DNA of 64,000 bases from Gammaproteobacteria bacterium. GTDB taxonomy: Bacteria > Pseudomonadota > Gammaproteobacteria > Pseudomonadales > Azotimanducaceae. Below are positions 4,396 through 48,222 of this stretch, in pieces (the stretch's first letter is position 1; each line of letters opens with the position of its first letter). A program made the translations under genes and the position numbers. The DNA lies in contig DUBB01000010.1 of the NCBI GenBank assembly GCA_012960535.1, positions 1 through 64,000 of the forward strand, read 5' to 3'. Below the pieces are notes generated by a model that saw nothing but the letters and a program-made list of their open reading frames with translations, was not told where the DNA came from and did not search any database.

Positions 4396-6405
4396 TTGGT
4401 CGATAAAGTACCATCAGCTGACAGGCTTAGCGAAACGTTAATAAAAGATATTAAGCTGCTGTTGCAGTCGGGCGATTTTACCAAAGCCGAATCTCAGCTA
4501 TTGGATCTAGTTGCTTCAGAGCCAGACCACGAAGAAGTACTCTATATGCTGGCTGTAAGTCAGCGCTACCTGAAAAAACACCCCCTGGCTTTGCAGACCC
4601 TTGATAAGTTAAAGAGACTCATACCCGATCATAGTCGTGCTTATCAAGAAACCGGCCATGTTTATCGAGCCATGAATAATTCCAACGCAGCGCTGAATGC
4701 CTATAGCAGGGCTGTGCAAATCAACCCGGCTCTAGAAGCCAGCTTTAAAGCTCAAATCGAGATTCTTTCAGCTACGGGCAGAGCGGCGGTTACTGGGCAG
4801 TTAAAGCAACAGTTGCAGACTCTGCAAGCACTACCAAAGCCGCTCATCGCAGTCACTGACCTCTTATCTCAGGGCAAACTGGTTAAAGCTGAACAACTGT
4901 GCAAAGCGTTCATGCAAAAAGTCCCTCGTCACATTGAAGGTATGCGCCTGTTGGCTGATATAGGGAGTCGCTTGGGTGTTTTAGAAGATGCAGAATTTTT
5001 GTTAGAAAGTGCTATCGAGTTTTCACCAGAAAATATTCAGGTGCGAATCGATTATATTCAGGTACTTAGAAAGCGGCAAAAAAATGAATCAGCCCTTGCC
5101 CAGGCAAAAATCCTGTTGGCAAAAGACCGGAACAACCCACAGTTTCAATCTGTTTTTGCGGTTGAGTCTATGCAGTCAGGTGACTATGACACAGCTTTAG
5201 AGACTTTTGATTCTATTTTAGCAACCTTACCTGAAGACCCCGTAACACTAACTTCTCGTGGCCACGCGTTAAAAACACGCGGACGAACTGACGAGGCTAT
5301 TGATTCATACCGTCGCGCGATCAAGAAATATTCTGCGCATGGTGAGGCATACTATTCGCTGGCTAATCTAAAGCTGTTTAGTTTTAGTGAAGCAGAGCTC
5401 CATGCGATGGAACTGCAGGAGAAAAACCTCGGTATATCCCACATGAGCCGCGTGTATCTGAATTTTGCCCTAGGTAAGGCTTACGAAGATAAGGGGCTTT
5501 TTGACAGATCTTTTGAGCACTATGAGCGCGGAAACGCTTTCAAAAAAGCCCAAAGTCGATACAAGTCCAGCGAACTCACTGATGAGTTTAATGCCCAGGC
5601 CGATGTTTTTGATGATGCGTTTGTAGCCGTCCATGCAGATACAGGCCACGATGCGCCAGATCCAATTTTCATAGTGGGTCTGCCAAGATCCGGGTCTACT
5701 TTGTTAGAGCAAATTCTGGCCTCACACAGCCAGGTTGATGGCACCATGGAATTACCTAACATGCTTGCTCTGGCGCAAAAATTACGCAGAGGCGAGCGGA
5801 TGAGTGCTACCAACCACTATCCAGCGGTACTGAAAACACTGGAGCCTGATAAGTTTGCTGAATTTGGCAAGACATTTATCAAAGAAACACGTATTCATCG
5901 AAGCACCGCTCCATTTTTTATTGATAAGATGCCGAATAACTTTAGGCATATTGGATTAATCAATTTGATGCTACCCAATGCCAAGATTATCGATGCTCGC
6001 AGGCATCCAATGGGCTGTTGTTTTAGTGGATTTAAGCAGCTGTTCGCTGAAGGTCAAGAGTTTACCTACGGCCTTGAAGAGGTCGGAACCTATTACAAAG
6101 ATTATGTTGAGCTGATGGATCACTGGGATAAAGTCTTGCCGGGCAAGGTATTGCGCGTTCAATATGAGGAGGTTGTTGCAGATCTCGATACCCAGGTGAG
6201 ACGCATACTTGATTACTGCGGGCTTGACTTTGAAGAGAGCTGTATTAGCTTCTATGAAAATGAGCGCTCAGTGCGAACCCCAAGTTCAGAGCAGGTTCGC
6301 CAGCCGATCTATCAAAGTGGTGTCGAACAGTGGAAGAATTTTGAGGCCAACCTAAACCCCTTAAAAAAGGCGCTTGGTCCTGTATTGGATCGTTATCCCG
6401 TTTAA
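4396..6405 (+). CDS. TPR-repeat sulfotransferase
   Basis: 669-aa protein with two parts. Residues 15 to about 390 are tetratricopeptide repeats (for example alternating pairs with xAYYSLAN and ALNAYSRAV). From about 420 there is a PAPS-dependent sulfotransferase domain with the 5'-phosphosulfate loop GLPRSGST at 428-435. It would transfer sulfate from PAPS to a hydroxyl or tyrosine acceptor; the acceptor is unknown. The start is a TTG at 4396 behind ACGGAGAA, squeezed directly after the receptor terminator. The last codons (CCC GTT TAA) are the first unit of a 13-bp tandem repeat, so the gene end has been duplicated downstream. Pairing with the upstream TonB receptor suggests a shared role. 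Confidence 0.9.
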   Translation: MVDKVPSADRLSETLIKDIKLLLQSGDFTKAESQLLDLVASEPDHEEVLYMLAVSQRYLKKHPLALQTLDKLKRLIPDHSRAYQETGHVYRAMNNSNAALNAYSRAVQINPALEASFKAQIEILSATGRAAVTGQLKQQLQTLQALPKPLIAVTDLLSQGKLVKAEQLCKAFMQKVPRHIEGMRLLADIGSRLGVLEDAEFLLESAIEFSPENIQVRIDYIQVLRKRQKNESALAQAKILLAKDRNNPQFQSVFAVESMQSGDYDTALETFDSILATLPEDPVTLTSRGHALKTRGRTDEAIDSYRRAIKKYSAHGEAYYSLANLKLFSFSEAELHAMELQEKNLGISHMSRVYLNFALGKAYEDKGLFDRSFEHYERGNAFKKAQSRYKSSELTDEFNAQADVFDDAFVAVHADTGHDAPDPIFIVGLPRSGSTLLEQILASHSQVDGTMELPNMLALAQKLRRGERMSATNHYPAVLKTLEPDKFAEFGKTFIKETRIHRSTAPFFIDKMPNNFRHIGLINLMLPNAKIIDARRHPMGCCFSGFKQLFAEGQEFTYGLEEVGTYYKDYVELMDHWDKVLPGKVLRVQYEEVVADLDTQVRRILDYCGLDFEESCISFYENERSVRTPSSEQVRQPIYQSGVEQWKNFEANLNPLKKALGPVLDRYPV

Positions 6406-6436
6406 CTAGTCCGTTTAACTAGTCCGTTTAACTAGG
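6398..6436. repeat. Tandem repeat, 3 x 13 bp, at the end of the sulfotransferase gene
   Basis: The unit CCGTTTAACTAGT occurs at 6398-6410, 6411-6423 and 6424-6436; the third copy differs only in its last base. The first unit includes the stop codon of the sulfotransferase gene, so the array looks like repeated duplication of the gene's 3' end. Confidence 0.9.
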
Positions 6437-6978
6437 GCTGTTTTCACTTTTTCACAATTAGACAGAAGCCTTTCATCCAGTAGACTTGTCAGGATCCGAC
6501 CCCAAAGATGCCCCATTCGGGTACTTCTGCAACCTTTAAAAAATGCGATTTATAGTGCCTAGCCTCTGATATTTTTCCCAGGGGTAAATTTTCCTCTATA
6601 TCCAGGCCAACAGGGTGAGGGAGTGGCAAGCGGTGGCTCGACATCGCGGATGTTTACATCTGTTGCGGAAGCACTGAGATTGTTAAATATTCATGCAGAG
6701 GTCTACAATTTGGTCGGTTTGCGGGGTCACTTAGCTTCAGCTTGAACCCACCGCTATTTTAGATTACATTTTCCCTCGCCTTGGAAAAATACAGCAATGC
6801 GGCAACATCTATTGGCTGCTGGTTATACGCTTAAATTATACGCTTAAAGAGATGACTGGTACTGGCGCTGCTGCGTTTGACATTAACTGTAAAACGCTTT
6901 ACGATCCGCGCCCTCAAGTGCCTTCATCGTATGAAATAGCGTGCTTGTTACACCCGTCTCAAGCACCCAGGATATACT
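6406..6978. other. 573-bp intergenic region with short tandem duplications
   Basis: No gene is apparent here. It begins with the 3 x 13-bp array, contains a palindromic GTCAGGATCCGACCCC stretch near 6489-6504 reminiscent of REP termini, and later a 2 x 13-bp duplication at 6823-6848. It should also hold the ybiT promoter, but no convincing -35/-10 pair stood out. Confidence 0.5.
6823..6848. repeat. Tandem duplication, 2 x 13 bp
   Basis: The unit TTATACGCTTAAA is present twice without mismatch (6823-6835 and 6836-6848), about 130 bp upstream of ybiT. Confidence 0.85.
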
Positions 6979-8583
6979 TTGATTACCACCGCAAATATCA
7001 CCATGCAATTTGGCGCTGCGCCCTTATTTGAAAATATCTCGGCCCAGTTCGGCCATGGTAACCGCTACGGGCTGATTGGCGCCAATGGCTGTGGCAAATC
7101 AACCTTTATGAAGATCCTCAGCGGTGAACTAGCCCCCAGCTCGGGCAACATTTCGATTAGCCCGGGTACCAAGGTTGGTACCTTAAGCCAGGATCAATTC
7201 GCCTTTGAGCAGTACAGTGTGGTGGATGCTGTGATAATGGGTGACGCTAACCTTTGGAACATCAAAAAGGAGCGTGAGCGAATCTACGGGCTGGCAGAAA
7301 TGAGCGAAGCCGACGGCATGAAAGTCGCAGACCTTGAGATCGAATACGCGGAACTCGACGGATACACGGCCCAAAGCAGGGCTGGTGATATTCTACTTCA
7401 GGCTGGCATAGAGGAAAGCTTACACAATGGGCCAATGAGCCAGGTCGCACCTGGCTGGAAATTGCGAGTCCTATTAGCCCAGGCATTGTTTTCCAATCCA
7501 GATATTCTACTACTCGACGAACCTACCAACAATCTGGACATCCACAGTATTAGCTGGTTGACAACGGTATTAAACCAACGTAGATGCACCATGATTGTCA
7601 TTTCTCACGATCGCCACTTTCTCAACTCTGTTTGCACTCATATGGCAGATATTGACTACGGCGAATTGCGAATTTATCCGGGCAACTATGAAAGATTTAT
7701 TGAAGCATCATCCCTGGTCCGAAAAAAACTATTAACCGAGAATTCAAAAAAGAGCGCTGAAATTGAGGAGCTGCAAGGATTCGTGAATCGTTTCTCCGCT
7801 AATGCTTCCAAAGCAAAGCAAGCGACTTCTCGTGCTAAGAAACTCGACAAAATTCAGCTCGACGAAGTCAAACCGTCAAGCCGTGTAAGCCCCTATATTA
7901 CTTTCAAGCAAGACAAGCAACTACACCGCCAAGCACTTGTATTGGAAGATTTAGCGCACGGTTTCGATGACGGCTTGTTGTTTTCCAATGGCAATATGAT
8001 TCTGGAAGCAGGCGCGAGGTTGGCAGTCATTGGCGAGAATGGGGTTGGTAAAACAACTTACCTGCGCTGCTTAATGAATGAAATCAATGCCAATGCCGGC
8101 AAAGTGAAGTGGGCAGAAAATGCGACCGTCGCCTATTGCCCCCAAGATAGCACTGAAGATTTTGATTCAGATCTTACTTTGTTTGAGTGGATGGCACAGT
8201 GGCGTAAACCTGGACAGGACGACCTGATGATCCGAGGCATGCTCGGTCGTTTGCTGTTCACTGCAGATGATGCCAACAAGAAAGCAAGGGTTTGCTCCGG
8301 TGGAGAGAAAAATCGACTGTTGTTTGGCAAACTTATGTTATCCGATGCCAATGTATTAATCCTGGACGAACCGACTAACCATATGGATATGGAAGCGATT
8401 GACGCGCTCAACCAGGCATTGATGCAATACGATGGTACCTTGATTTTTGTCAGTCATGACCGGGAGTTTGTTTCAACGCTTGCCACGCGTGTGGTGGAGA
8501 TTAAGGACCGAGAAGTCGTGGACTTTCAAGGCACCTATGACGAATACCTGGCAAAAACAGAGCCGCAAAGCAAGGCAGCTTAA
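6979..8583 (+). CDS. ybiT: ABC-F family ATPase YbiT
   Basis: 534-aa soluble ABC-F protein with two ATP-binding cassettes and no membrane segment. Members bind the ribosomal E site and modulate translation. The first cassette has Walker A GANGCGKS at about 34-41 and Walker [12 protein letters not shown]. The second has GENGVGKT, signature [10 protein letters not shown] and [11 protein letters not shown]. Overall it follows E. coli YbiT closely from end to end ([34 protein letters not shown]), and the length is nearly the same (about 530). The start is TTG, giving [12 protein letters not shown], which matches the family N-terminus; an AGGAT lies upstream. It seems monocistronic. Confidence 0.93.
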
Positions 8584-8825
8584 ACCGCCAGTGGATGGAG
8601 GTTTTGTCGACAACTTAACGACTTGATAAAAGCTTGATAGGTGAGTATTGCTGGATCAATAAATCAATGCCGTCAACAATGTGAAACTAACAAACCCGGG
8701 CAAAGATTACCGGTTACAATGCACCATCCAGAAACACCGCCTCGAGATTCACAATACTGATAGATTCAACTTCTATATGGCACAGGTTTCGCGGCAAATA
8801 ACAAACTTGGCTTGCTTACCGGGCG

Positions 8826-9020: not shown

Positions 9021-9118
9021 ATTAGCACCACGCTCACCCCGCCTTTTTTTTCAGGCTATGAACGATTAATTTCCTCCTGCCTGTCCTGTTAAACCAAGAT
9101 ATCCTTGATGTTAATACA

Positions 9119-9149: not shown

Positions 9150-9179
9150 TCATAGGTTCTTAATTCCACGGGCGCCAAA

Positions 9180-9320: not shown

Positions 9321-9387
9321 AGTCATCGATTTTAGGAAGGTCTGATCAGCAACCTTATGTGATACTGATCTTGCCCTACATAGTCTC

Positions 9388-12769: not shown

Positions 12770-12877
12770 CCTGTTTTTCTGGGTTGCCATTACCAATTAT
12801 TTTAACCGGGATGGTTTAATTAGCGTTTACTACCGTGTTCAGGTTCCACGGTTTATACTTCACAGCGATTATCAATA

Positions 12878-12955
12878 CAGTCGCCCTTAACAGGCGTCCT
12901 TAACAGGCGTCCTTAACAGGCGTCCTTAACAGTCGCCCTTAACAGTCGCCCTTAA
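12878..12955. repeat. Tandem array, 6 x 13 bp, abutting the tldD ribosome binding site
   Basis: Six head-to-tail 13-mers of two variants: A = CAGTCGCCCTTAA and B = CAGGCGTCCTTAA, in the order A B B B A A. The A/B alternation implies more than one duplication event. The last unit ends directly at the AGGA of tldD. Confidence 0.95.
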
Positions 12956-12965: not shown

Positions 12966-14351
12966 ATGCTTAATCCACAGTCAGCGCAATCCGTTATTGA
13001 TCACGGGATTTCATTGGGGGCCGACTTTGCAGAACTTTTTGTAGAACAAAGCCAGAGCAATATCATCAGCACCCTGAGCAATCAGGTTCAATCGGTAGAA
13101 TCTGGCATAGATTTTGGTATTGGTATCCGCCTGGTGTATGGCAGCAAAGTGCTTTACGGATATACCAACAAGCCCGAAGCAGACGAATTGAAGCGTATTA
13201 TGTCAGAGCTGGCCGCTAAGGACCTGCGAGCGCCAGGAATCTCATCAACAAGCTTTGATTACCGGCAAATCGAAGATTTGCACTCAGCGCAGCGCACCCT
13301 GTCCATAGACTCTGAAGTGGAAAGTAAGGTCGCCTTTTTAATGGCGGCAGATGCCGCGGCCCGAGCAGAAGGTAATATGATCTCTCAGACCCGGGGCACC
13401 TGTAGACAGAAACAACAGAACATCGAGTTATTCAATAGCGAGGGTCTGCATACTGCGGACACGCGTAACTATATACGAACTGGCCTAACATCGATTGCCT
13501 CGGATGGGTCCGATCAAGCAACCGGATCATGGAGTGATGGTGGTTTACTTGGCTGGGAACTGCAGGATGACATCAGCGCAGAAAAAACAGGCTCAGAAGC
13601 CTCCCGGCAGGCACTGGTTAATCTCGGTGCCAGGCCCTGCCCATCGGGTCGGATGCCAGTCATCATAGGCAACGGCTTTGGCGGGGTTATCTTCCATGAA
13701 GCCTGTGGCCATTTGCTGGAAACCACCTCGGTTGCAAAAAAAGCGTCAGTCTTTCACGACCAGATGGGACAGATGATCGCTAACCCGCGCGTTAATGCCG
13801 TTGACGACGGCCTTCTGCTGAAACAGTGGGGCTCAATCAACATCGACGATGAGGGTCTGGACACTCAACGCACCCAGTTGATTAAAGACGGCCAACTCAC
13901 CAGTTTCCTGGTCGACAGAATCGGGGCTGAGCAAACCGGGTTTTCGGCCACAGGATCTGGCCGTCGTGAATCTTACAAATTTGCGCCTGCATCAAGAATG
14001 AGAAACACCTTTATTGAACCTGGCGATGCCGAATTGGACGATATGATCGCATCCATTGATAAGGGCATTTATGCATCCCACATGGGAGGGGGCTCGGTTC
14101 AGCCCGGTACTGGCGAATTTAATTTTGCAGTCACGGAAGGCTATTATATTGAGCATGGCAAGATTAAATATCCGGTTAAAGCAGCAACATTGATCAGCAC
14201 TGGACCCGCAGTTTTAAAGGAAATCTCCATGGTGGGTAAGGACTTTTCCCTGGCCTGTGGCATGTGTGGTTCGGTCTCCGGTTCAGTTCCGACCAGCGTC
14301 GGTCAGGCTACCTTAAAAGTAGATGACATTCTGGTCGGAGGAAACGCCTGA
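12966..14351 (+). CDS. tldD: Metalloprotease TldD
   Basis: 461-aa TldD subunit of the TldD/TldE (PmbA) heterodimeric zinc protease, which digests unfolded peptides. In enterobacteria it matures microcin B17 and degrades the CcdA antitoxin. The zinc motif HEACGH (HExxxH) is at residues 244-249, and the conserved Cys-rich end GMCGSVSGSVPTSVGQ supplies a further ligand. ATG behind AGGA with a 6-nt spacer. The stop overlaps the pmbA start by one base, so the two are translationally coupled. The tandem array next to the ribosome binding site may alter expression. Confidence 0.93.
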   Translation: MLNPQSAQSVIDHGISLGADFAELFVEQSQSNIISTLSNQVQSVESGIDFGIGIRLVYGSKVLYGYTNKPEADELKRIMSELAAKDLRAPGISSTSFDYRQIEDLHSAQRTLSIDSEVESKVAFLMAADAAARAEGNMISQTRGTCRQKQQNIELFNSEGLHTADTRNYIRTGLTSIASDGSDQATGSWSDGGLLGWELQDDISAEKTGSEASRQALVNLGARPCPSGRMPVIIGNGFGGVIFHEACGHLLETTSVAKKASVFHDQMGQMIANPRVNAVDDGLLLKQWGSINIDDEGLDTQRTQLIKDGQLTSFLVDRIGAEQTGFSATGSGRRESYKFAPASRMRNTFIEPGDAELDDMIASIDKGIYASHMGGGSVQPGTGEFNFAVTEGYYIEHGKIKYPVKAATLISTGPAVLKEISMVGKDFSLACGMCGSVSGSVPTSVGQATLKVDDILVGGNA

Positions 14352-15679
14352 TGAGTATTGAAAACCAGGCTCAGCAGGTAATTGATCTCGTTAGCGCAGC
14401 CGGCGCTATGGGTGATTTGATCATTGATCAGGGCGAGTCTTTGTCGTTAAAGGCAAGCGAAGGGGAACTTGAAGAATATAAAGTTAGCTCGAGTCAGATC
14501 CTGGGTCTCAGAGTCATAAAAGACGGTAAAGTCGGAACCGCCTATAGTGAGGCAGTGGACAAAAACGCGCTGAACTCATTAGTAGACCAGGCGCTCACCA
14601 ACGCGAGTTTTACGGTCACTGAAGCACATGAAAGAATCCAACTCAATGACAACCGCTTAAAAACTGATGATGCCGTTCTCTGCCCTGCAGAGGATGTCGA
14701 AATTGAGCACAAGATTAAATTTTGTCTGGATATGGAACGTGATCTTGTTGCTAAGCCAAAGGTTAAGAATGTCCCCTATAACAGTGTGCAGGATATTACT
14801 GGCCAGCGTCATGTCTTTTCCAGTGCCGGGTTAAATGCCAGTTCTAAAAGCCGGATGTGTGTTGCTTATGCCTACGCGCTGATTGAAGATGGCGACAAAA
14901 ATGCCATGCAAGGTGCGGGGCAGGCCAGCAGGCTCTTTGCTGACCTCAATGTCAATGATCTCGTTGAAAGAGCCTATAGCAATACGATTGATATACTTGA
15001 TGGTAGTCCGGTAGCAAGTGGACATTATGATGTTATCTTCGATGAAGAAATGCAGGCATCACTATTCCAGGTGTTTTCGATGATGTTTTCCGGGAAGTCC
15101 GCCAAGGATGGCGTGAACCCCATGCGTGAAAAACTGGGTCATGCTATCGCCGATCCTCGCCTTAATATCATTGACCAGCCTTTGAACAGCCAGGGCTTTG
15201 GTTATAGCCTCTTCGATGCAGAAGGTATTGCGACTCATGCCACACCGTTAATCGTTGATGGCGTGCTAAATACGTTAATTCATAACAGCGCGACAGCTTC
15301 ATTTTTTGACGTTGTAACCACCGGACATGCATCACGCAGCCCAAAGTCAACGATGGGTGTTGGTTTGCACCAGATTGAAATCAGTGCCGGTGATGCAACA
15401 TCGGTTGATCTTCTTTGCAGCGAGTATCTGTTGCTGACCGATATGACTGGCCTGCACTCTGGTGCTAATGCCATATCGGGTGATTTCAGCTTTGGAGCAT
15501 CCGGTTATCTTTGTCAGGATGGCGAACGGGTCCGACCTGTACGGGGCATTACCGTCGCCGGCAACTTTTATGAAATGCTTAGAAAGATTGCGCTCATTGG
15601 TAAAGATCAATATTGGAACTGGGAGAAATCAGCCCTGATGCCCCAAGTCAGGTTCGCTGATATTGCTATTTCTGGCTAG
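14351..15679 (+). CDS. pmbA: Metalloprotease subunit PmbA/TldE
   Basis: 442-aa TldE/PmbA, the partner of TldD. It lacks the HExxxH motif, as expected for this subunit, and ends in the family's RFADIAISG. The glycine-rich SGDFSFGASGYLCQDGE stretch and GRGITVAGNFYEMLRKI-like region fit PmbA. Start ATG overlaps the tldD stop by one base; length is usual. No downstream gene is coupled. Confidence 0.93.
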   Translation: MSIENQAQQVIDLVSAAGAMGDLIIDQGESLSLKASEGELEEYKVSSSQILGLRVIKDGKVGTAYSEAVDKNALNSLVDQALTNASFTVTEAHERIQLNDNRLKTDDAVLCPAEDVEIEHKIKFCLDMERDLVAKPKVKNVPYNSVQDITGQRHVFSSAGLNASSKSRMCVAYAYALIEDGDKNAMQGAGQASRLFADLNVNDLVERAYSNTIDILDGSPVASGHYDVIFDEEMQASLFQVFSMMFSGKSAKDGVNPMREKLGHAIADPRLNIIDQPLNSQGFGYSLFDAEGIATHATPLIVDGVLNTLIHNSATASFFDVVTTGHASRSPKSTMGVGLHQIEISAGDATSVDLLCSEYLLLTDMTGLHSGANAISGDFSFGASGYLCQDGERVRPVRGITVAGNFYEMLRKIALIGKDQYWNWEKSALMPQVRFADIAISG

Positions 15680-16258
15680 GCTGTGGTGATAACTAAAGGC
15701 AATCCAGATACCCAGAGGTTGCCATCACAGATAACGCAAAAAGAGACCAAAGCGCCTCCGTGCCTCTGCTCATCTTTGGTAGACTTAGTCACCACCCCGT
15801 AAATGACACGCTCAACCGACTGTAGTCCGCATTCATATAAATCGGGGGAATCAACGGACTGAAATTGTTAATTGAGGGGAACCCAGGTGCGTGCAGCCGC
15901 CATCAAGCACATCAATTTAGCCGTCGCGGGAACTGGATATACTGTCTCAACTGGTTGCTCTAAGCACATTTACTGGACACAATGATCAAACTAATGCCGC
16001 CTTTCCTGACAAAGTCGACCCGAATGTATTAGCGGAATCTATTGGTAGATTCTATTGGTAGATTCTATTGGTAAATTTTATTGGTATTAGAAAAGTACTG
16101 TTGCATCGGTATAGCCACTGCCAGCATGTGGGCTGCGATACATTGAATACCCTGCATCATCTCTGTAAAAGCCAATCTGGATTGAACAGAGACGTTCTGA
16201 GACGCTCCAAGAAAGCCAGCCTATACGGTGGACAGATCTAATCTCGTGAGGACTTCAA
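15680..16258. other. 579-bp intergenic region with 4 x 13-bp array
   Basis: No gene is visible. Apart from a 13-bp tandem array at 16035-16086 nothing stands out. The promoter of the GFA-family gene must be near the right end; its ribosome binding site is GTGAGGAC. Confidence 0.5.
16035..16086. repeat. Tandem array, 4 x 13 bp
   Basis: Units at 16035, 16048, 16061 and 16074: GAATCTATTGGTA, GATTCTATTGGTA (twice) and AATTTTATTGGTA. The central two are identical and the outer ones diverged. Confidence 0.92.
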
Positions 16259-16663
16259 ATGATTACTGGCCGATGTGAATGTGGAAACGTGCAATACCAA
16301 ATCGACGGTGAAATAACGGATTACAGTCATTGCCACTGTAGCCAGTGTCGGCGAATGCATGGTGCTGCATTTGCAAGCTTCGCAGGCGTGGTTCGCAGGC
16401 AATTCAAGTATCGATCAGGTGAATCTGATCTGACTGTTTACAACTCTTCCAAGTCACATAAGCGAGTTTTCTGTCGTGTGTGTGGTTCTAACATACGGGT
16501 TGATTTGAGCGATTATCCGGATGAATTGTATATTGCAATGGGGACAATGAATGACAACCCCAAGTTACCGCCCGGATATCATATTTATGTAGGGTCAAAA
16601 GCGCCCTGGTTTGAAATCACTGATAATCTGCCTCGTTATCACGAAGAGCCACAAGATGACTGA
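16259..16663 (+). CDS. GFA/CENP-V family zinc protein
   Basis: 134-aa member of the glutathione-dependent formaldehyde-activating (GFA) fold family. Zinc-binding cysteines are seen as CECG near the start, CHCSQC at 25-30 and CRVCGS at about 92-97. Members bind zinc, and a few use glutathione adducts, but most, probably including this one, have no proven reaction. Start ATG with GAGGAC upstream. Cytosolic, no operon partner. Confidence 0.9.
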   Translation: MITGRCECGNVQYQIDGEITDYSHCHCSQCRRMHGAAFASFAGVVRRQFKYRSGESDLTVYNSSKSHKRVFCRVCGSNIRVDLSDYPDELYIAMGTMNDNPKLPPGYHIYVGSKAPWFEITDNLPRYHEEPQDD

Positions 16664-25106: not shown

Positions 25107-26008
25107 ATCGTCCCCTCCTGGCTATGCTGTTGCTTTCAATTTATCTGTCTTGATCAATCGTACGCCATAATCAGCCGGTCCGCTTGTTTACTATCAGTAC
25201 GCTGATATCTTGACCGCCGGCACAAGCCGCACTGTGTAAAAGCCGCCGGCAACCTGTTCACCCGCCTTCTGAGTAACCAGCCTGAGACAGACGCTTACGC
25301 AATTACAGGCAGTATAATGTGAGACGGGTGTTTTCGGCTATGGTGAATGGTTTGCAGCGCTTCAAGGGGTGTTGACCTGTTTGCCAATGGTAACCCGGTG
25401 TGGGCATGGCCATCATAATGAGTGAAATCGCTACTGGAAATCTCAAGATGCCATCGATGACTTTTCGTTAAAGCATAGCTTGTTGCCAAGGCTCGTTGTC
25501 AAGGCTTGTTACCAAGGCTTGTTGCCAAGAACAAAATAGTGCCCCGGTCCAGATTCAGAAAATCCAGTATCGTTTCCATCAGGTAATGATCAAAGAAAAC
25601 GACAAACTGACCCCAGCCATGAGCAAAAACCTCTGTTTTGGAGCCGAAATCAGCATAGCATCACAGTGCAGGTCGATGCCGAACTCATAACCTCAGAGCG
25701 CCAGCATAAAATGGTTATGACGCTTCGAAGGAAGACTATCAGACAACCAGGCAAGTCGGCCGACTCTCTTCCTAAAACGACAGGCCAACTGCGAGTCTTA
25801 CTGCAGCATGCAATGGTTCCAGGGAATCCCCTGATTAACGAGCTGAGATCTGCCAGATCCCTTGGCAAAACGCCATTGCTTACCAATACAACGCCTATGG
25901 ATTTTCGGGGCTTTTTCAAGTTCAATATGGAAGATGCAGTTCATGGCAAAGAAGAAAGTAAAACATGCTACACAAGTCTATCTGCAACTAAAATAAAGAG
26001 TAATTGAA
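25107..26008. other. 0.9-kb intergenic region with 4 x 13-bp array
   Basis: No gene could be supported. Several open frames (for example 25666-26007 rightward and 25295-25489 leftward) have no ribosome binding site or family features. A 13-bp tandem array lies at 25478-25529, and a spaced CCGCCGGCA repeat lies near 25215-25252. Confidence 0.45.
25478..25529. repeat. Tandem array, 4 x 13 bp
   Basis: Units GCTTGTTGCCAAG, GCTCGTTGTCAAG, GCTTGTTACCAAG and GCTTGTTGCCAAG at 25478, 25491, 25504 and 25517. The first and last are identical; the middle ones carry one or two substitutions. Confidence 0.93.
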
Positions 26009-37001: not shown

Positions 37002-38798
37002 ATGACTGACAAAACCTTTGAAAAAGACGGCTTAACCTTCCGCGACCTCGATCATGACGGTGTACTTGCACCTTTTGAAGACCACCGCAACAGCATTGCC
37101 GAGCGTGTCAGTGACCTGAAACAGCGAATGACCCTGGCCGAAAAAATTGGCCTCATGATGCATGGAACAGCGCGGTCTCAAGGACCGCTCGGCTCACTGG
37201 GTATAGGTGACAGCTACGATGAAGAACCGATTAGAGATCAGTTACTGGCTAAATCAATCAACCATTTAATCACCCGGTTAAATGTGGCGCCCGGTGACTT
37301 TGCGATACAGAACAACCGCATTCAGGCAATTGCTGCCCAGGCACGACTAGGCATTCCAGTGACCATCAGTACCGACCCAAGACATCACTTCCAACACGTC
37401 ACTGGCGCAAGCAGTCGGGCGCTGGGATTTTCTCAATGGCCGGAAACGACTGGATTGGCTGCCACAAGGGACGCTTCTATAACTCGTGAATTTGCTGGAA
37501 TTGCAAGAACAGAATACCGCGCGGTGGGAATCCATATGGCCTTGTCACCCCAGGCCGATATTGCAACTGAACCGCGATGGTCACGGATCTCAGGCACATT
37601 TGGCGAATATCCTCAGCTAGCACGAACGATGACTGAAGCCTATGTCGAGGGTATGCAGAACAGCACCACAGGGCTCAATAGTGAAAGTGTTGCCGCCGTT
37701 GTTAAACACTGGGTGGGCTATGGTGCGGCGCCAGACGGGTTCGATGGTCACAATGACTACGGCCAATTTTCAGCCGTAACAGATGAGAGTCTGGATTATC
37801 ATATCGAACCCTTTGTGGGTGCCTTCGGGGCACATGTGGCCGGTGTCATGCCAAGTTATACAATTACGCATCGCCTCACCTCTAATGGAACGCCCATTGA
37901 AGCTGTCGCCGCTGGCTTCAGCCATTACCTGCTCGAAACCCTGCTACGAGATCAAATGGGTTTCAACGGATTTATTCTTTCCGACTGGGCCATCTATCGT
38001 GATGCAACACCCGCAACCAGAAATCCAAAGAAGATGCAAACACCCGATGACATCGCCATGCCCTGGGGAGTGACGGCTTTAACTCGAATCGAGCGCATAG
38101 CCAAAAGTATCAATGCGGGGGTGGATCAACTGGGAGGCGAAGAAGACGTCGATGCACTGGCCAGCGCGGTCGCATCCGGCCTTGTACCCGTTGAGCGCAT
38201 TGACCAAGCAGTGGCAAGATTACTCAGAATCAAATTTGAACTGGGCCTGTTCGATGCGCCTTTTGTCGATGCAGCACGAGCAACTGCCATTGTTAATTGT
38301 TCCAAACATCAGCGACTGGCGCTCAATGCCCAACGTACAGCCCTGGTTTGCCTGAAAAAACACGCGGCCGTTGACCCCTTGGCACTGGCATTCTGCAACC
38401 TGGATTCTTCTGAAGGCTTCTCTGAGGAAACCACTCTGGTTATCAGAATTACATCACCCCATGAATTACTTCATCCCAATCACTTCTTCGGCTCGATGCA
38501 ACACGAGGGTTCACTAGAGTATAACAACCAGAGCACCGAGCTTGAAAAAATCCGCTATTTAGCTAGATCCAACCCGGTCATTCTTGTCATCCAGATGGTG
38601 AGGCCTTGCGTTATCAATAACCTGTTACCGCTGGCAGCAGGCATTTATGTGGATCTCGGCATTTCTGATGAAGTCATTCTGGAGGCCATCACTGGGCAAT
38701 TCCAAGCCCAGGGGGAATTGCCTTTTCAACTGCCGGATTCAATGCAATCCGTGGTTGCAGCGCGCTCTGATATTCCCGGGCCATCTCTGCCGGAATAA
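37002..38798 (+). CDS. Glycoside hydrolase family 3 enzyme
   Basis: 598-aa GH3 protein, a retaining beta-glycosidase. The TIM-barrel part carries substrate-binding VVKHWVGYGAAPDGFDG and the nucleophile Asp328 in FILSDWAIYRD. A C-terminal alpha/beta sandwich follows (about 420-598). There is no signal peptide (MTDKTFEKDGL...), so it would act in the cytoplasm on an imported glycoside. No transporter or PUL-type partner is adjacent. Confidence 0.88.
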   Translation: MTDKTFEKDGLTFRDLDHDGVLAPFEDHRNSIAERVSDLKQRMTLAEKIGLMMHGTARSQGPLGSLGIGDSYDEEPIRDQLLAKSINHLITRLNVAPGDFAIQNNRIQAIAAQARLGIPVTISTDPRHHFQHVTGASSRALGFSQWPETTGLAATRDASITREFAGIARTEYRAVGIHMALSPQADIATEPRWSRISGTFGEYPQLARTMTEAYVEGMQNSTTGLNSESVAAVVKHWVGYGAAPDGFDGHNDYGQFSAVTDESLDYHIEPFVGAFGAHVAGVMPSYTITHRLTSNGTPIEAVAAGFSHYLLETLLRDQMGFNGFILSDWAIYRDATPATRNPKKMQTPDDIAMPWGVTALTRIERIAKSINAGVDQLGGEEDVDALASAVASGLVPVERIDQAVARLLRIKFELGLFDAPFVDAARATAIVNCSKHQRLALNAQRTALVCLKKHAAVDPLALAFCNLDSSEGFSEETTLVIRITSPHELLHPNHFFGSMQHEGSLEYNNQSTELEKIRYLARSNPVILVIQMVRPCVINNLLPLAAGIYVDLGISDEVILEAITGQFQAQGELPFQLPDSMQSVVAARSDIPGPSLPE

Positions 38799-39014
38799 AA
38801 ATTCCAAAGCAGCCAAAAGGCCAAAAAGCCGGCTTTGCCAGGCATTGCTAACCAGCTTATGCTGCCACTTAACCCTGACACGATTCTTGAATTTGCTGCC
38901 GGGTTAAAAATACCCGATTCTCGAATTCCACCTGTAAACAGCTCTCTAACTGACAAATTTCCGCCGCATTCACCTTCCTGGTCTGCCTTCCCTGGCACTC
39001 TGGCTTCGTGCAAC

Positions 39015-40646: not shown

Positions 40647-40786
40647 AGCTAATGTGCCAATCACCCTCTGTTAAGTTAAAGAAAAGCAAAAGCCATGGGA
40701 CCATTTAACCAGTTGTTGGTTATTAACAGGTCTCCTATAGCGGATCCTTGCTGATACCTGAACTGTTCACGCCTTAGGTATCAATT

Positions 40787-40814
40787 AAAACCCTGTTAGT
40801 AAAACCCTGTTAAG
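40787..40814. repeat. Tandem duplication, 2 x 14 bp
   Basis: The unit AAAACCCTGTTAGT is followed by AAAACCCTGTTAAG (12 of 14 identical) in the intergenic region between the monooxygenase and ridA. Confidence 0.75.
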
Positions 40815-40926: not shown

Positions 40927-41301
40927 TCATCTGGGCCTGCGCGCGGTCACTTTGATCTCTGCACGGGTACCCGGTATAACGAGCTCTGTAATTCCAATCC
41001 AGGTGGATGCTGGGTAGGGCTCTTTGATGAATTCATCCTTGACCCTGGCCATCGTTGCCGCATTCTTCTGCAGATCGACCACATAGAGCGTGCTGTCAAT
41101 GATGTCCTCATAGCCTACACCCGCCGCCAGCAGGGTCTCACCCAACGACTGCCAGGCATCTCGAAATTCATCTTCCAGCGACTCGCCTCTGCCTACAACT
41201 CCGGAAAAGAAAATAAGATCACCATGACTTACCGCAGGAGCGAAATGCCAGCTCTCGTAGGTCTTGCGGGCAGATTCGGGAACGATAACTTCTATTGGCA
41301 T
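40927..41301 (-). CDS. RidA family protein
   Basis: 124-aa Rid-fold protein. RidA hydrolyses reactive enamine/imine intermediates, and the relatives outside the RidA core group have varied roles. Conserved features seen are HFAPAVSHGDLIFFSGVVGRG at the start and the C-terminal AEIKVTARRPR, with the usual catalytic Arg105 position not confirmed. Start ATG behind a strong AAAGGAGG. It is downstream of the YtcJ-type amidohydrolase on the same strand, 52 bp away, with a 13-bp tandem array between. Confidence 0.85.
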   Translation of the reverse strand: MPIEVIVPESARKTYESWHFAPAVSHGDLIFFSGVVGRGESLEDEFRDAWQSLGETLLAAGVGYEDIIDSTLYVVDLQKNAATMARVKDEFIKEPYPASTWIGITELVIPGTRAEIKVTARRPR

Positions 41302-41314: not shown

Positions 41315-41366
41315 TTACTTGCTCTGATTACTTGCTCTGATTACTTGCTCTGATTACTTGCTCTGA
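41315..41366. repeat. Tandem array, 4 x 13 bp, across the amidohydrolase stop codon
   Basis: Four identical copies of TTACTTGCTCTGA (reverse strand TCAGAGCAAGTAA) at 41315, 41328, 41341 and 41354. The last contains the stop codon of the amidohydrolase (TAA at 41356-41354). As at the sulfotransferase gene, the duplicated unit is the gene's own 3' end. Confidence 0.96.
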
Positions 41367-43051
41367 TAAATTTCCTGGCCCGCTAAATAGGTAGCGGTAA
41401 CCGTTCGATCCGCAATCGATCGACCAACAGGATCAGTTATTCGCTGATCGAGAATGACAAAATCTGCCCACTTGCCTACTGAGATACTGCCTATTTCATC
41501 AGCCCATGATGTCATATCTGCCGCGGCCTGGGTATAGCCGTAGAGCGCTTCATCAAAGGTCAAGGTGTTGTCCTGGTCCCAGGGGCGGACAACACCATTC
41601 ATGCGGGTTTGACGATGCAGGGTGTCACCCATCTGAATGAGGGGATTAAATGGCGAAGTCGACCAGTCAGAACCTAGTACCAGGTGATTACCATTATCAA
41701 GCATCTGCCGCCACGCATAGGCATATTGCAGGCGTTCAGGGCCGATACGGTCGATAACGTAGTCACCCACACAACAGGTTGCGTGGTGGGGTTGCATGGA
41801 TGCTGCTATACCCAGTTGGCCAAACCGCTTTATGTCCGCGTCAGTTACCAGCTCTACGTGCTCGATCCGGTCCATAAGCGCATCTGCAGCACGTGGCGAT
41901 GCTGCAAAGGCGTCCAATACCCATGAAACTCCTCGATCACCAATGGCATGTACGGCGACGGGCCAGCCGGCATCATGTGCGGTGGCGACCATATGGTCGA
42001 GGTGATCCTTGCTGATAAACGGTGCTGGTGACGCCGTTGGCCGGTCAGCATAAGGCGCATGCATTAATGCCGTATGGGTTGATAACACGCCGTCAATCAT
42101 CATCTTTACGTAACCAACTTCCAGCAAAGGGCCCATGTCAGCAACTTGCTCGTCGTGTGCAACGATATTACGCACTCGCTCTCTTTCAGCTGCCATGGAA
42201 TCTAGCTGGCCTGCCAGGTCATCAGTCGGCGTCACGAAAGTGCCTGCCCAAATCCGCAGGGTAAGATTTCCTTCGCTGAGCACCGTCAGGAACGCATCCA
42301 TATTGCCACTCATATCATGCGCCCCGGTGAGTCCAAACCGGTTGCCCATTCGAACTGCGGCCCTAGCGCCAGTGACCGCATCACGGGCAGCGGCGAGACC
42401 AGGGGCATCGTCAAACAATCTTGCCGCACCCTCCAAGAAGATCCCTGTCTGTTCGCCGCTGACCTTATTAACCAGAATTTCACCACCCGCTGGCACACGA
42501 CTGCCTGGCGTGATGCCAGCAAGCCTAATAGCCAGACTACTAGCCCACTGGGTGTGGCCATCGATGTCGGTCAGCAGTGTTGGATTTTCCGGCGCCACCG
42601 CATCAAGCATCTCCTTTGACGGCAGCACACCATCACCCAGCATGTGATTCCAACGGCCGCCTAGAATCCAAGCGCCACGAGGCAGAGCCTCTGCCCTGGC
42701 ACCAATAATGCTAAGCCATTCCTGTTTGTCTGCGATGTCGGTCAGGTCCACACCGGTAGCAAGGCTGGCTCCGCTAATCATATGGCTATGCCCATCTATC
42801 AAGCCCGGAATAATGGTAACGCCCGCGGCATCAATGATCTGTGTTGTTTCTGATGCCAGCGCACTAATTTCTGCGGACGACCCGATCGCTGTGAACTTCC
42901 CGGCACTAACGGCAAATGCTTCTGCCCTGGGCAGGGTTGAATCAACCGTACGAACGTCCGCATTAACCACGATCAGGCCAGGTGCCTGGTCACGTTCGCT
43001 AGCACAACCGCTTAAAAGCAAAACCAGCCATGCAGCAGAAAAAATTTTCAA
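41354..43051 (-). CDS. YtcJ-type amidohydrolase, predicted lipoprotein
   Basis: 565 aa from a TTG at 43051 that gives a textbook lipoprotein leader, MKIFSAAWLVLLLSGCASE (lipobox LSGC); a longer 595-aa frame from TTG at 43141 is possible but would put 30 residues before the signal. It has the metal-dependent TIM-barrel features of the YtcJ/amidohydrolase family 3: PGLIDGHSHMI near the N-terminus, HAIGDRG in the body and a C-terminal YLAGQEIYQSK. It would hydrolyse an amide or cyclic amide outside the cytoplasm. It is followed by ridA and preceded by the PhyH gene on the same strand, probably an operon. Confidence 0.88.
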   Translation of the reverse strand: MKIFSAAWLVLLLSGCASERDQAPGLIVVNADVRTVDSTLPRAEAFAVSAGKFTAIGSSAEISALASETTQIIDAAGVTIIPGLIDGHSHMISGASLATGVDLTDIADKQEWLSIIGARAEALPRGAWILGGRWNHMLGDGVLPSKEMLDAVAPENPTLLTDIDGHTQWASSLAIRLAGITPGSRVPAGGEILVNKVSGEQTGIFLEGAARLFDDAPGLAAARDAVTGARAAVRMGNRFGLTGAHDMSGNMDAFLTVLSEGNLTLRIWAGTFVTPTDDLAGQLDSMAAERERVRNIVAHDEQVADMGPLLEVGYVKMMIDGVLSTHTALMHAPYADRPTASPAPFISKDHLDHMVATAHDAGWPVAVHAIGDRGVSWVLDAFAASPRAADALMDRIEHVELVTDADIKRFGQLGIAASMQPHHATCCVGDYVIDRIGPERLQYAYAWRQMLDNGNHLVLGSDWSTSPFNPLIQMGDTLHRQTRMNGVVRPWDQDNTLTFDEALYGYTQAAADMTSWADEIGSISVGKWADFVILDQRITDPVGRSIADRTVTATYLAGQEIYQSK

Positions 43052-43134
43052 GTAAAGCACATAGCAGGTTGAATTCCCTCGACCGAATTTAAGTTGCCTA
43101 TTAAGCGCCGGCAGTCTAATGGTGATGGCTTGCC

Positions 43135-43953
43135 TTACCAATCTACTATTCCGACCAATTTCTCACCCAGGCGCGTTAATTCGGCCCGACCGCCCGGTTC
43201 CGGAATATCCTGACCAGGAACCTTTTGGTTGATGGCCCACGCCGGCGGCATATTGTTCTGCCATTCGTAAATGCGCTGCTGCCTTTCTTTTTCCAGTGAA
43301 ACAGCCGGTTGCATGGTCACATATTGCACAAAGCGATGGAGCGATGAAGCATTCTGCAAGCTGGTATGCGGCATCAGTCGATTAAAGACCACCAGGCTAC
43401 CTGCCTTTCCGGCAAAGACCTCCAGATCACTCTGGTCTACTTTTGGAAACCTTCGGTCAGCACTATCAGCGTGTACTTTAAGATAATCAGGCAGGTTCTG
43501 AAAAATAGAAGGTACACAACAAAATGCACCCTGATTGACATCTGTATCCGTTAAATACACCAGGCCCTGAAAGCTCGCACCTGTAAACTGCCACGGATCA
43601 CAGTCCCAGTGCAGCGGTTCTCTTCGCCATGCCCGAGTGACGGGTGAAACCGGTGGTTTGTATGAAACACGATCCATGCTCACCCAGAGCGCATGCTGTT
43701 GATACAGGTTGGCGAATACCTGGTAAACCGCCGGATGCTGGCGAACATCCCACAGTGCCTGGGCATGATGCAATGGCACTATGCCATGACCTGCAAACCT
43801 GGACTGGTACCAGGTGTTTGGATCATTCAATTCAACACCTGTATAAGAAAGTATAGCCTCAGTCACTTTACTGGTAAGCGACTCAGGAACTATATCGGGC
43901 ACGACCAGAACACCCGTGGTTTTGAATTGCTGTATCTGCGTTTCTGATAGCAT
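43135..43953 (-). CDS. PhyH-family Fe(II)/2-oxoglutarate dioxygenase
   Basis: 272-aa phytanoyl-CoA dioxygenase-like protein. The metal triad is visible: His115-x-Asp117 (LHWDCD) and distal His196 (NRLMPHTS), with Arg207 to bind 2-oxoglutarate. It would hydroxylate a small molecule. First gene of the minus-strand run with the amidohydrolase and ridA; the 83-bp gap to the preferred amidohydrolase start argues for a loose operon. Substrate unknown. Confidence 0.88.
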   Translation of the reverse strand: MLSETQIQQFKTTGVLVVPDIVPESLTSKVTEAILSYTGVELNDPNTWYQSRFAGHGIVPLHHAQALWDVRQHPAVYQVFANLYQQHALWVSMDRVSYKPPVSPVTRAWRREPLHWDCDPWQFTGASFQGLVYLTDTDVNQGAFCCVPSIFQNLPDYLKVHADSADRRFPKVDQSDLEVFAGKAGSLVVFNRLMPHTSLQNASSLHRFVQYVTMQPAVSLEKERQQRIYEWQNNMPPAWAINQKVPGQDIPEPGGRAELTRLGEKLVGIVDW

Positions 43954-44014
43954 AAAATAAGCTGCTCATTACCCTGAAAAGAACCATTGAATACTGGCAC
44001 AATTGCCGGATAGC

Positions 44015-44260
44015 ATGGAATTGAAAAAAACCGTTGCCGTGGAGATAGATTTGACCATCGATCAATTACGGAGTCAAAACCCATCTGTGCCTGAGCTTAA
44101 GGCGACTTTTGAACGCCTACCCACACGCGCCGCCGCCTCTGGGAAAGCGAAGACAGCTATTATCAAGGCCGTCATGCGGATACAGATCGCGCTCAAAACG
44201 GCAAAAGCGCTGATCGACTATAGCAATGTGGCTATCGAAATGTGGCTATCGAAATGCTAA
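44015..44260 (+). CDS. Small hypothetical protein, frameshifted at its end by a 14-bp duplication
   Basis: 82 aa from the ATG at 44015 (a TTG at 44003 gives 4 extra residues). The protein is helical (MELKKTVAVEIDLTIDQLRS, later IDYSNVAIEM) with no known family. Near the 3' end a 14-bp unit is duplicated (44225-44252) and shifts the frame to WLSKC-stop. If one copy is removed, the frame runs on to a stop at 44308-44310 with a natural-looking end (LRRSEQLLAAKTMAMKN). The gene looks recently broken or altered. It lies between the divergent PhyH and the FGGY kinase genes. Confidence 0.5.
   Translation: MELKKTVAVEIDLTIDQLRSQNPSVPELKATFERLPTRAAASGKAKTAIIKAVMRIQIALKTAKALIDYSNVAIEMWLSKC
44225..44252. 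repeat. Tandem duplication, 2 x 14 bp, in a coding sequence
   Basis: AATGTGGCTATCGA occurs twice without mismatch (44225-44238 and 44239-44252), followed by a further AATG. Because 14 is not a multiple of 3, it shifts the reading frame of the small gene. Confidence 0.95.
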
Positions 44261-44379
44261 GGCGATCTGAACAATTGCTCGCAGCTAAAACAATGGCAAT
44301 GAAAAATTGATGCTCTGCTCGGTCACATCGAGACCAGCACACTCGCCTCATACCATGCCGCGTATCGAGCCCTGAACCT

Positions 44380-45810: not shown

Positions 45811-45948
45811 GCATACTGCTACAAAAAGCCACGGTCTGTTTTCAGGGCCCCATTTCCAAAATCATAGCCTCAGCGAGAGTAGCCCGGCTTTTCTCTTTGC
45901 TGCGGGTAGTGCTTTAATAGCAATAACATCGGTAATGGAACCAGACCT

Positions 45949-47091
45949 GTGAAAAGCACCTTAATCAAACACGGTCTCGTTTATGCAGTTGAAGCACATC
46001 AGTTTCAGCCCATGGACGTACTGATCGAAGATAAGCAAATAGTCGCGATCGAGCGTCACATCAAAGCTGAAACTGACAGCACCATCGATGCCAGCTCTTT
46101 GCATATCGCGCCAGGGTTTATCGATCTTCATTGTCATATTTTTAATCATCCACTTTTCAAGAACGGGCGCCTGCCCGCAGATAGAATCGGCGTCAATCAA
46201 GGCGTCGCCTGCCTGTTAGACACAGGCAGCGCTGGCCCGACAACGATCGATGCGTTCAAGGAATTTGTAATTGACACACAGTCCACAGCAACTTATGCGT
46301 TATGTAATATCGGTTCGCCTGGCCAGCCGGGAATTACAGGTGGTCACGCGGCAACGCCAGAACTTATTTCCCTGAGTGGAACAGTAGACGCAATTGAGAG
46401 AAATCCTGACTGGATTTTAGGTGTAAAGGTTTTAGCCTCCTCAACCCATACCGGTCTAATGGGGCTTGAAGCGGTGAAGATCGGCAGGAAAGCTGCCGAG
46501 ATTGCCGGGACTCCACTGATGGTGCACATTGGCAACGCGCCACCGCTGGTGGATGATGTTTTAGATTTGCTGCGCCCGGGCGACATTGTCACGCACGCCT
46601 ACCATGGTAAAACGGGGGGTGTACTGGGATATAACGATCTGGTTATCCCACAATTCCGGGCTGCAGTAGAACGTGGTGTGATTGTCGACATCGCTCATGG
46701 CCGCTCGTCATTTTCATACCAAACCTGCGCCAAGGCATTGGATCAAGGTATGCCGGTTCACACCATCAGTAGTGATTTACACGGTGGTAACATCAACCGC
46801 TACGTTGTCTCACTGGCCCGGACAATGAGCAAATTCCGCACGCTTGGATTAAGCCTTGAAGACGTTATTCAGGCGGTAACGGTTAACCCTGCAAAAGCGG
46901 TTGGCCTGGACAAAAAAGGCTTTGGCCAACTCAATGTTGGTGGGCCTGCTAACCTGACGTTGTTTGCCGAAACTGACAGGGCAGTTGAAATGGAGGATGC
47001 TGAAGGGGAAATCCGTATTTCGCAGAACTGGATTGAACCCAAAATGGTTTTTATCGATGGCGTCTGTTTTGAGACCACAGAGGTGCTGTAA
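45949..47091 (+). CDS. Deacetylase/amidohydrolase of the EF_0837-like group
   Basis: 380-aa metal-dependent hydrolase with the dihydroorotase fold. The metal-binding His61-x-His63 (IDLHCHIF) and the carbamylated Lys160 (GVKVLAS) are clear, with later His in VTHAYHG and Asp in SSDLHGG. This set matches the family of putative amidohydrolases next to SelA-like PLP enzymes (TIGR03583 pairing with TIGR01437). GTG start. It ends directly at the start of the PLP gene (stop 47091, ATG 47092), so the two are co-translated. Confidence 0.85.
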   Translation: MKSTLIKHGLVYAVEAHQFQPMDVLIEDKQIVAIERHIKAETDSTIDASSLHIAPGFIDLHCHIFNHPLFKNGRLPADRIGVNQGVACLLDTGSAGPTTIDAFKEFVIDTQSTATYALCNIGSPGQPGITGGHAATPELISLSGTVDAIERNPDWILGVKVLASSTHTGLMGLEAVKIGRKAAEIAGTPLMVHIGNAPPLVDDVLDLLRPGDIVTHAYHGKTGGVLGYNDLVIPQFRAAVERGVIVDIAHGRSSFSYQTCAKALDQGMPVHTISSDLHGGNINRYVVSLARTMSKFRTLGLSLEDVIQAVTVNPAKAVGLDKKGFGQLNVGGPANLTLFAETDRAVEMEDAEGEIRISQNWIEPKMVFIDGVCFETTEVL

Positions 47092-48222
47092 ATGCGTGTT
47101 TCCCCGTTCGTAATTAATGCTGCTGGCAAGTTAACTGCCCTGGGTGGTTCTGCCCAATCAGAACAGGTAGCTCAGGTACAGTTTGAAGCAGCAAGCCAAC
47201 ACGTTGATTTAGCCTTACTACGTAGTCAGGTTTCAGAGCAGATTGCCGGTATAACAGGTGCGCAAGCCGCCTGCATCACGTCGGGGGCCGCAGCCGGAAT
47301 CGCAATATCCGTTGCCGCGTTAATTACCGGTGATCACTTGCATCGTATCCAGCAACTTCCCCAGACCGATGAAACCCATCAGGTGATTCTGCAAGCCGGC
47401 CACGCCATTAATTTTGGAGCCCCAGTGGAACAGATGATTCGCCTGGGCGGTGGTAAACCTCGGATATTAGGCAGCGCCAGTCAGGTCCACGAGCAACTGC
47501 TGCTGGACTGCCTTGCTAACGAGCAGTTCACCGCGCTTTTATATGTGAAGTCTCATCACTGTGTGCAAACCAACCAGATCAGCCTTGAACGCTGCGTTGA
47601 GATCTGCCATCGCCATGAGGTTCCGGTTATTGTTGACGCTGCAGCAGAAGAAGACCTGAGCTCTTTCCTGAATGCAGGTGCTGACCTGGTAATCTACTCG
47701 GGTGGAAAGGCCTTTTGCGGTCCCACCAGTGGTTTCATTGTTGGCAACACAGATTTAATCTCATTCTGTGAGCTTCAGTCGCAAGGTATTTCCCGCACCA
47801 TGAAGGTCGGCAAGGATACTATCTCTGGATTAGGCGCGGCTCTTAACGAATATGTCGCCGCTGACAATGATGCCAGGCTAGGTTCCTTCCAGGCCAGAAA
47901 TACCCTTCTGATGGCCGCCCTCTCCAATACATCGATGCTTCACGCAAGGCTTCAGGCAGATGAAGCCGGCCGGCCCTTCAGCCGGGTTGCTGTTTCACTA
48001 AAGCAGGGTGACAGAAAGCTCGGTGATAAACAGCTCGGTGATAAACAGCACGGTGATATCACGGCTCTGGTGCATTTTCTAAAATCTGGTTCACCCAGCA
48101 TTCGCACTCGAAATCATCACTTGAACGAAGGTTACCTGCTAATTGACCCTCGAGAGCTTAGCGAATCACAAGTTGCCCTGATTGCCAAACGTCTGCTCCA
48201 GTTCGATCAGCAACTGACCTAA
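47092..48222 (+). CDS. SelA-like / DgaE-like PLP enzyme
   Basis: 376-aa pyridoxal-phosphate enzyme of the selenocysteine-synthase-like group, which includes D-glucosaminate-6-phosphate ammonia-lyase DgaE. The PLP lysine is Lys206 in YSGGKAFCGPTSG, with Asp in VDAAAEEDL near. Next to an amidohydrolase and FGGY kinase, an elimination of ammonia from a phosphorylated amino sugar acid is the best guess. Residues 305-320 carry an in-frame 15-bp tandem repeat (LGDKQ LGDKQ HGD), probably a surface loop expansion. A KDPG aldolase or PTS gene is not seen nearby. Confidence 0.82.
   Translation: MRVSPFVINAAGKLTALGGSAQSEQVAQVQFEAASQHVDLALLRSQVSEQIAGITGAQAACITSGAAAGIAISVAALITGDHLHRIQQLPQTDETHQVILQAGHAINFGAPVEQMIRLGGGKPRILGSASQVHEQLLLDCLANEQFTALLYVKSHHCVQTNQISLERCVEICHRHEVPVIVDAAAEEDLSSFLNAGADLVIYSGGKAFCGPTSGFIVGNTDLISFCELQSQGISRTMKVGKDTISGLGAALNEYVAADNDARLGSFQARNTLLMAALSNTSMLHARLQADEAGRPFSRVAVSLKQGDRKLGDKQLGDKQHGDITALVHFLKSGSPSIRTRNHHLNEGYLLIDPRELSESQVALIAKRLLQFDQQLT
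48019..48058. repeat. In-frame tandem repeat, 15-bp unit
   Basis: CTCGGTGATAAACAG at 48019-48033 and 48034-48048, then a partial third copy CACGGTGATA. A diverged fourth copy precedes at 48004-48018. It encodes LGDKQ repeats in the PLP enzyme without breaking the frame. Confidence 0.9.

Follow-up and report, generated by a model that had tools for sequence, protein, structure and literature searches.

Unrelated intergenic minisatellites with a preferred unit length of 12-15 bp in a gammaproteobacterial lineage

Introduction

The window analysed here is a stretch of 64,000 nucleotides (contig C10:1-64000) from the draft genome (4.24 Mb in 53 contigs) of a marine gammaproteobacterium, and it carries a series of short tandem arrays whose units, most often of 13 bp, differ from locus to locus. 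A first-pass annotation had described nine of these duplications. Tandem Repeats Finder (TRF) recovered all nine at a score of at least 50, with starts within 3 bp of the annotated ones, and found one array beyond them at 38446-38478. A passage of PMC3899988 defines minisatellites by head-to-tail units of more than 10 bases, and the window arrays of 13, 14 or 15 bp, which run head to tail, are minisatellites by that definition. We show here that they belong to a population of arrays with unrelated units and a preferred unit length of 12-15 bp, and that copy number in this population changes between sister species. The ten arrays of the window are listed with their state in the sister species, which is 94% identical to the own genome; strand is unassigned except where it is given.

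6398..6435: 13 bp x 2.9 copies, overlapping the stop codon (6403-6405) of the open reading frame (ORF) 4396-6405 (TPR protein); about one copy in the sister (G011)
6823..6848: 13 bp x 2.0, upstream of the ABC-F gene 6979-8583; sister sample without an orthologous site
12877..12955: 13 bp x 6.1, in the TldD leader (gene 12966-14351), with unit variants ordered A B B B A A
16038..16086: 13 bp x 3.8, in the gap that separates the PmbA-like gene 14351-15679 from the GFA gene 16259-16663
25478..25529: 13 bp x 4.0, 84% matches; sister sample without an orthologous site
38446..38478: 17 bp x 1.9, 87% matches, within ORF 37002-38798, absent from the first-pass list; length equal in the sister
40786..40812: 14 bp x 1.9; length equal in the sister
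41315..41367: 13 bp x 4.1, at the junction of the amidohydrolase gene 41354-43141 (minus strand) and the RidA-like gene 40927-41301 (minus strand); about one copy in the sister
44225..44256: 14 bp x 2.3; sister site located, not readable
48017..48058, plus strand: 15 bp x 2.8, inside ORF 47092-48222 (SelA-like pyridoxal phosphate, PLP, enzyme) with the frame kept; length equal in the sister

Results

We surveyed 1.16 Mb of the own genome (window included) together with same-genus samples of 287 kb from the sister species G011, 78 kb from G013 and 200 kb from G002, 293 kb from G015, which is of the same family and a different genus, 361 kb in all from other families of the order (G018, G020 and G021), 100 kb from five distant genomes (two of the class, three of the phylum) and 300 kb from E. 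coli K-12. Genes were called with a purpose-built hexamer model, and the labels coding and intergenic are approximate throughout. Order-3 Markov sequence served as the null, with one replicate per sample and ten for the first count of exact duplications. No array at the detector threshold was found in the Markov sequence made for each sample, and thus the nine arrays are not due to chance. The array density of the window is ordinary, with 7 intergenic-labelled loci against 4.1 expected (P = 0.12).

Intergenic loci showed a clear preference for units of 12-15 bp. The pooled set combined the own sample with three relatives, leaving out the window and also G011, which largely repeats own loci; it held 148 intergenic loci by a lag-match detector that detects two exact copies at periods of at least 11 bp and, beyond this, is biased towards longer ones; the 18-bp family described below and units of 5 bases or fewer were excluded. 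Ninety of these loci had periods of 12-15 bp, against 26 at 8-11 bp, 17 at 16-19, 8 at 20-23, 6 at 24-27 and one at 30 bp. A separate pooled count with its own locus boundaries gave 20, 26, 24 and 25 loci at 12, 13, 14 and 15 bp, and 7, 4, 0, 6, 3, 3, 0, 3 and 4 at 16 to 24 bp. Exact duplications outside the window, taken once per locus, numbered 7, 3, 7, 9, 3 and 3 at 10 to 15 bp (n = 40), which places the hump at 10-13 bp by exact copies. The hump was much alike for two-copy and multi-copy loci. A model in which birth is multiplied by amplification, with a higher multi-copy share expected at 13-18 bp, was not supported: at least 2.9 copies were present in 31 of 86 loci at 13-18 bp vs 14 of 37 at 10-12 bp. 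None of 19 loci at 19-24 bp reached that number.

The period in the window had been described as constant at about 13 bp, as would result if a single process of fixed length made the duplications, for example a nuclease with a fixed offset or UvrABC, which cuts out a 12-13-nt patch. Thirteen was the commonest single period in the own sample with the window included (17/78), and it was found at six of the seven intergenic loci of the window vs 11/71 in the rest of the sample, a post hoc contrast (Fisher p = 0.0003) that is no fair test because the window was chosen for the 13-bp pattern. Among 57 arrays of the own sample with a TRF score of at least 70, the leading periods were 13 (14 arrays), 15 (10), 14 (4) and 17 (4), with a low-end bias in that 26 exact bases score 52 and two exact copies reach a score of 50 only from period 13. 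Without the window, however, the own sample held 11 loci at 13 bp and 13 at 14 bp (14 and 13 with other boundaries), the pooled counts ran almost level from 12 to 15 bp, exact duplications were spread over 10 to 15 bp, and a sharp spike at exactly 13 bp was gone when multiple runs within an array were merged into a single count. We judge a fixed length of 13 quite improbable, and conclude that the run of 13-mers in the window is a local cluster on a real, broader hump. An equal frequency of other periods had been proposed as the mark of a chance cluster; 12, 14 and 15 bp were about as common as 13, and periods of 16-24 bp were much rarer.

Within genes the picture was different. Periods were divisible by three at 41 of 49 coding loci vs 57 of 148 intergenic ones (pooled, window out; p = 2.5e-8), and in G015 at 21 of 22 of the coding ones. 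It seems that one and the same process is at work within genes, with selection preserving the frame; repeats belonging to protein function would yield the same multiple-of-three picture. The first-pass annotation had attributed the shared length to a mechanism and not to selection on sequence. A mutational process with a length scale is supported by the excess at 12-15 bp over 16-19 bp and by the coding multiples of three, and the inference thus holds in a weaker form than first stated, with a hump in place of a fixed 13.

The units had also been judged unrelated, and so not copies of one mobile repeat, and this was borne out. For periods 11-17 and 19, pairwise matches between units were near those of shuffled units, the exceptions being one 16-mer pair and two loci that were sampled in both sister genomes; at period 13, only 2 of 276 unit pairs matched at 80% or more, both of them the same locus in two sister genomes. 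Target-site scars left after transposon insertion and excision are a very remote explanation. The target-site length of some insertion sequences is of the right order for these units, but a scar is two copies of one fixed length, and the arrays hold up to 16 units with periods of 9 to 19 bp.

Several sequence-based triggers were examined and rejected. A shared seed motif was not found, as no 5-, 6- or 7-mer stood above the null in 91 units (10 arrays of the 18-bp family dropped); the top 4-mer, TTAA, reached z = 4.0, marginally above the 95% null of 3.8, and units were richer in A+T than intergenic DNA. Hairpin-driven slippage fared no better, with stems of at least 4 in 33 of 89 units, where shuffled units gave 30.5 (sd 4.0) and random intergenic stretches 30.3 (sd 4.5). 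Transcription-strand asymmetry was likewise dropped: among 53 arrays between same-direction genes, C exceeded G in 21 and G exceeded C in 21. On the sense strand of these 53, A exceeded T in 31 and T exceeded A in 18.

Copy number differed between the sister species at most sites that could be compared. Both flanks were present in the sister sample for 15 of 90 own arrays, 14 of them readable (44225 was not), and 10 of the 14 differed in length, eight by whole units (-2, -3, -2, -1, -2, -2, -3 and -3 in the sister), one by 2.08 units and one, 16038, by 0.85, although choosing the arrays in the own genome favours a shorter state in the sister. At 16038 the sister is about one unit longer and mixes 12- and 13-bp units. 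In the reverse direction, both flanks were present for 8 of 15 sister arrays. Two of the 8 were unreliable; among the other six, the own genome was equal at two, shorter at three and longer at one, five of these six loci being already counted in the forward direction. Besides the roughly single copies at 6398 and 41315, the sister has one good copy at L031:4277, with an imperfect second beside it (read by eye). A clean 11-bp tandem duplication at L028 near 18723, which lacks microhomology, is single-copy in the sister and is a candidate recent birth. Sister gaps of at least 9 bp numbered 18 in 16.5 kb of aligned intergenic DNA, and 12 of the 18 lay at arrays (read from the list, two arrays being counted twice where a gap is split). 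A 30-bp stretch near position 38914 of the window is also missing from the sister; it is not a tandem copy of its neighbour.

That the arrays arose by chance or by misassembly is hardly credible. The genomes of the family are drafts and the concentration of 13s in the window is partly chance, but the Markov sequence yielded none, the same sites recur in separate assemblies with differing copy numbers and with substitutions between copies, and G002, which is in only 8 contigs, has 13 loci in 200 kb.

The arrays are enriched in this lineage over E. coli. We counted 78 intergenic loci in the own genome (503 per intergenic Mb), 18 in G011 (482), 7 in G013 (555) and the 13 in G002 (399). G015 (L157-L166, L201-L206) had 57 in 48.0 kb of intergenic DNA, or 1,188 per Mb, about twice the own genus. 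Seven relatives at the TldD locus (L065-L071) had 2 intergenic loci in 8.9 kb (225 per Mb). In other families of the order there were 11 loci in G021 (880 per Mb), 3 in G018 (227) and 1 in G020 (58). G021 is rich, so the trait is not limited to the own family, and G020 is poor, so it is not common to the whole order. No locus was found in 51.6 kb of intergenic DNA of E. coli K-12, where ribosomal RNA (rRNA) genes were counted as intergenic, or in 17.1 kb of intergenic DNA from the five distant genomes.

Microhomology was frequent at the junctions of two-copy loci. Four or more bases were shared at 10 of 25 junctions in the own genome, and in G015 at 11 of 23, with none shared at 5; these counts of at least four bases are inflated, since some two-copy loci are remnants of larger arrays that have decayed. 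If homology were irrelevant, the calculated expectation is about 56% without microhomology and about 2% with four or more bases. Homology therefore helps and is not required.

Several arrays of the window had been said to begin in a stop codon region or end at a ribosome binding site, and this is so for some of them. The array at 6398-6435 overlaps a stop codon; that at 41315-41367 shares 14 bp with the 3' end of ORF 41354-43141 and lies directly beside the AGGAGG (minus strand) that precedes the RidA-like gene; and that at 12877-12955 abuts AAGGA, followed by the TldD ATG at 12966. Such positions in leaders or gene junctions beside a ribosome binding site, together with copy number changes between sisters, could be taken to mean that copy number tunes promoters, leaders or gene spacing in a manner like phase variation. 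The units are unrelated, however, and placement among gene pairs is about what intergenic length predicts: own arrays fell between tandem, convergent and divergent genes in numbers of 25, 7 and 19 vs 26.0, 8.4 and 16.6 predicted, and those of five genomes in numbers of 74, 12 and 30 vs 63.3, 17.7 and 35.0 (p = 0.11). We consider a functional role for the arrays improbable.

The TldD leader offers a closer view of one array. The TldD protein shares 99% identity with its counterpart in the metagenome-assembled genome (MAG) NAT84 (NZUN01000083.1) and 87-88% with those of five further MAGs, including one labelled Halioglobus sp. and one uncultured Pseudomonadales. The leader carries six units in the own genome, three in NAT84, which we take to be the sister G011, and no array in five relatives at 87-88% protein identity; none is present in L065-L071. 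The unit end reads CTTA in all six own units and CCTA in all three NAT84 units, across two unit variants, a split that suggests homogenisation within the array.

Discussion

We think it probable that these intergenic minisatellites originate in situ, through tandem duplication of the slippage type that favours sizes of 12-15 nt, and that they are mostly neutral. A short local sequence, usually of 12-15 bp and whatever its letters, would be duplicated head to tail where it stands, most likely through slipped-strand mispairing or because a flap left unremoved in replication or repair is ligated. The duplication would often, not always, be assisted by microhomology of a few bases, and the array would afterwards gain and lose units. 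Selection would act mainly as a filter that tolerates any length between genes and mostly multiples of three within them. The slippage or flap step and the neutrality are what we infer, and the arrays look like a by-product of the lineage's DNA copying or repair and not a designed element.

Some results speak against birth by slippage in this form or limit its reach. Plain slippage does not predict the lack of microhomology seen at eight of the 25 own two-copy junctions, and the simple account in which longer units amplify better was not borne out (14/37 at 10-12 bp vs 31/86 at 13-18 bp). Four of the 14 readable arrays are unchanged in the sister: the in-frame array at 48017, one array with 3.3 copies and two with 1.9. 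The detailed comparison covers two sister genomes only, one genome per species, and repair-gene content gave no lead to the step that sets the length.

What might set the size can be suggested from general knowledge: a primer-length flap, a 12-13-nt excision patch, or the loop size tolerated at the fork. A possible though rather unlikely extension is a size-gated process, in which a replication or repair step hands over 12-15 nt of local sequence for recopying, and rarely more than 15. If this were true, the geometry of one enzyme complex would be recorded genome-wide in the family.

Loss of a repair gene was considered as the cause and found no lead in Ku, MutS, the Pol I 5'-nuclease, ExoI or SbcC; RecJ, ExoVII and UvrABC were not part of the search. 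Ku had no match in the own genome or in 34 of the 37 order-sample genomes, MutS was matched in 40 of 40 genomes, and the Pol I 5'-nuclease domain, predicted from sequence, and the ExoI C-terminal domain were each present in 14 of 14 genomes searched. A full-length SbcC match was obtained only in G015, the array-richest genome, and G022, and none in the own genome (G000), G002, G006, G010, G011 or G013; the array-poor G020 gave none either. Two MutS matches above the cut-off occur in the own genome (G000:C50:134791-135660 and G000:C12:107984-108853), each in an open frame of more than 860 aa, and no such pair was found in the other 39 genomes searched. The second match is either a paralog or contamination of the draft, which is estimated at 3.7%.

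In flap-endonuclease mutants, such as yeast rad27 or E. coli lacking the Pol I 5'-nuclease, unprocessed flaps give rise to short tandem duplications, often at short direct repeats. The present arrays resemble these duplications, but the predicted Pol I 5'-nuclease domain is present here in all genomes searched. The arrays also resemble bacterial variable number tandem repeats (VNTRs), since copy number differs between related genomes, and they are VNTR-like between sister species; they differ in that very many loci with unrelated units occur in one lineage, mostly intergenic, at 12-15 bp and few longer. The short tandemly repeated repetitive (STRR) sequences of cyanobacteria likewise form many short intergenic arrays in one lineage, but STRRs share a 7-bp unit whereas the units here are unrelated and of 12-15 bp. 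Small dispersed repeats, which form one sequence family, are also short, tandem and variable in copy number; arrays of periods 11-17 share no sequence, and only an 18-bp family found in the survey is a repeat of this kind. A literature search found no account of a size window of 12-15 bp for this group, though that is no proof that none exists.

The 18-bp family is a dispersed tandem family of related units with the consensus SAGCCYTSAGCGnATAAA, usually spaced 18 bp apart and elsewhere 17 to 25. Its arrays include the following.

L027:6703-6885 and L018:9324-9377: own genome, contigs C7 and C15
L148:5101-5298: G002
L160:8470-8616, L162:11-243, L166:1-115 and L201:4905-4996: G015

Its dimer pattern occurred in 13 of 29 genomes, with 80 matches in G015 and 0 for the reversed control. 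The core is mostly GAGnnYTC or CAGnnYTG, with mixed forms in G002. Several arrays stand at contig starts, and most lie outside open frames that continue past the array; one distant match (L223) falls within a lysine-rich frame that is long and open.

Tandem duplications supply the material from which VNTRs form, and the presence of many young, unrelated arrays with a clear size window makes the length scale of duplication measurable without confounding by sequence. The finding would be an ordinary one if the size window proves general to slippage in repeat-rich bacteria. The size limit and the abundance of arrays in this lineage are the interesting part, and in marine gammaproteobacteria the arrays are candidates for strain markers and a likely source of small changes in gene leaders.

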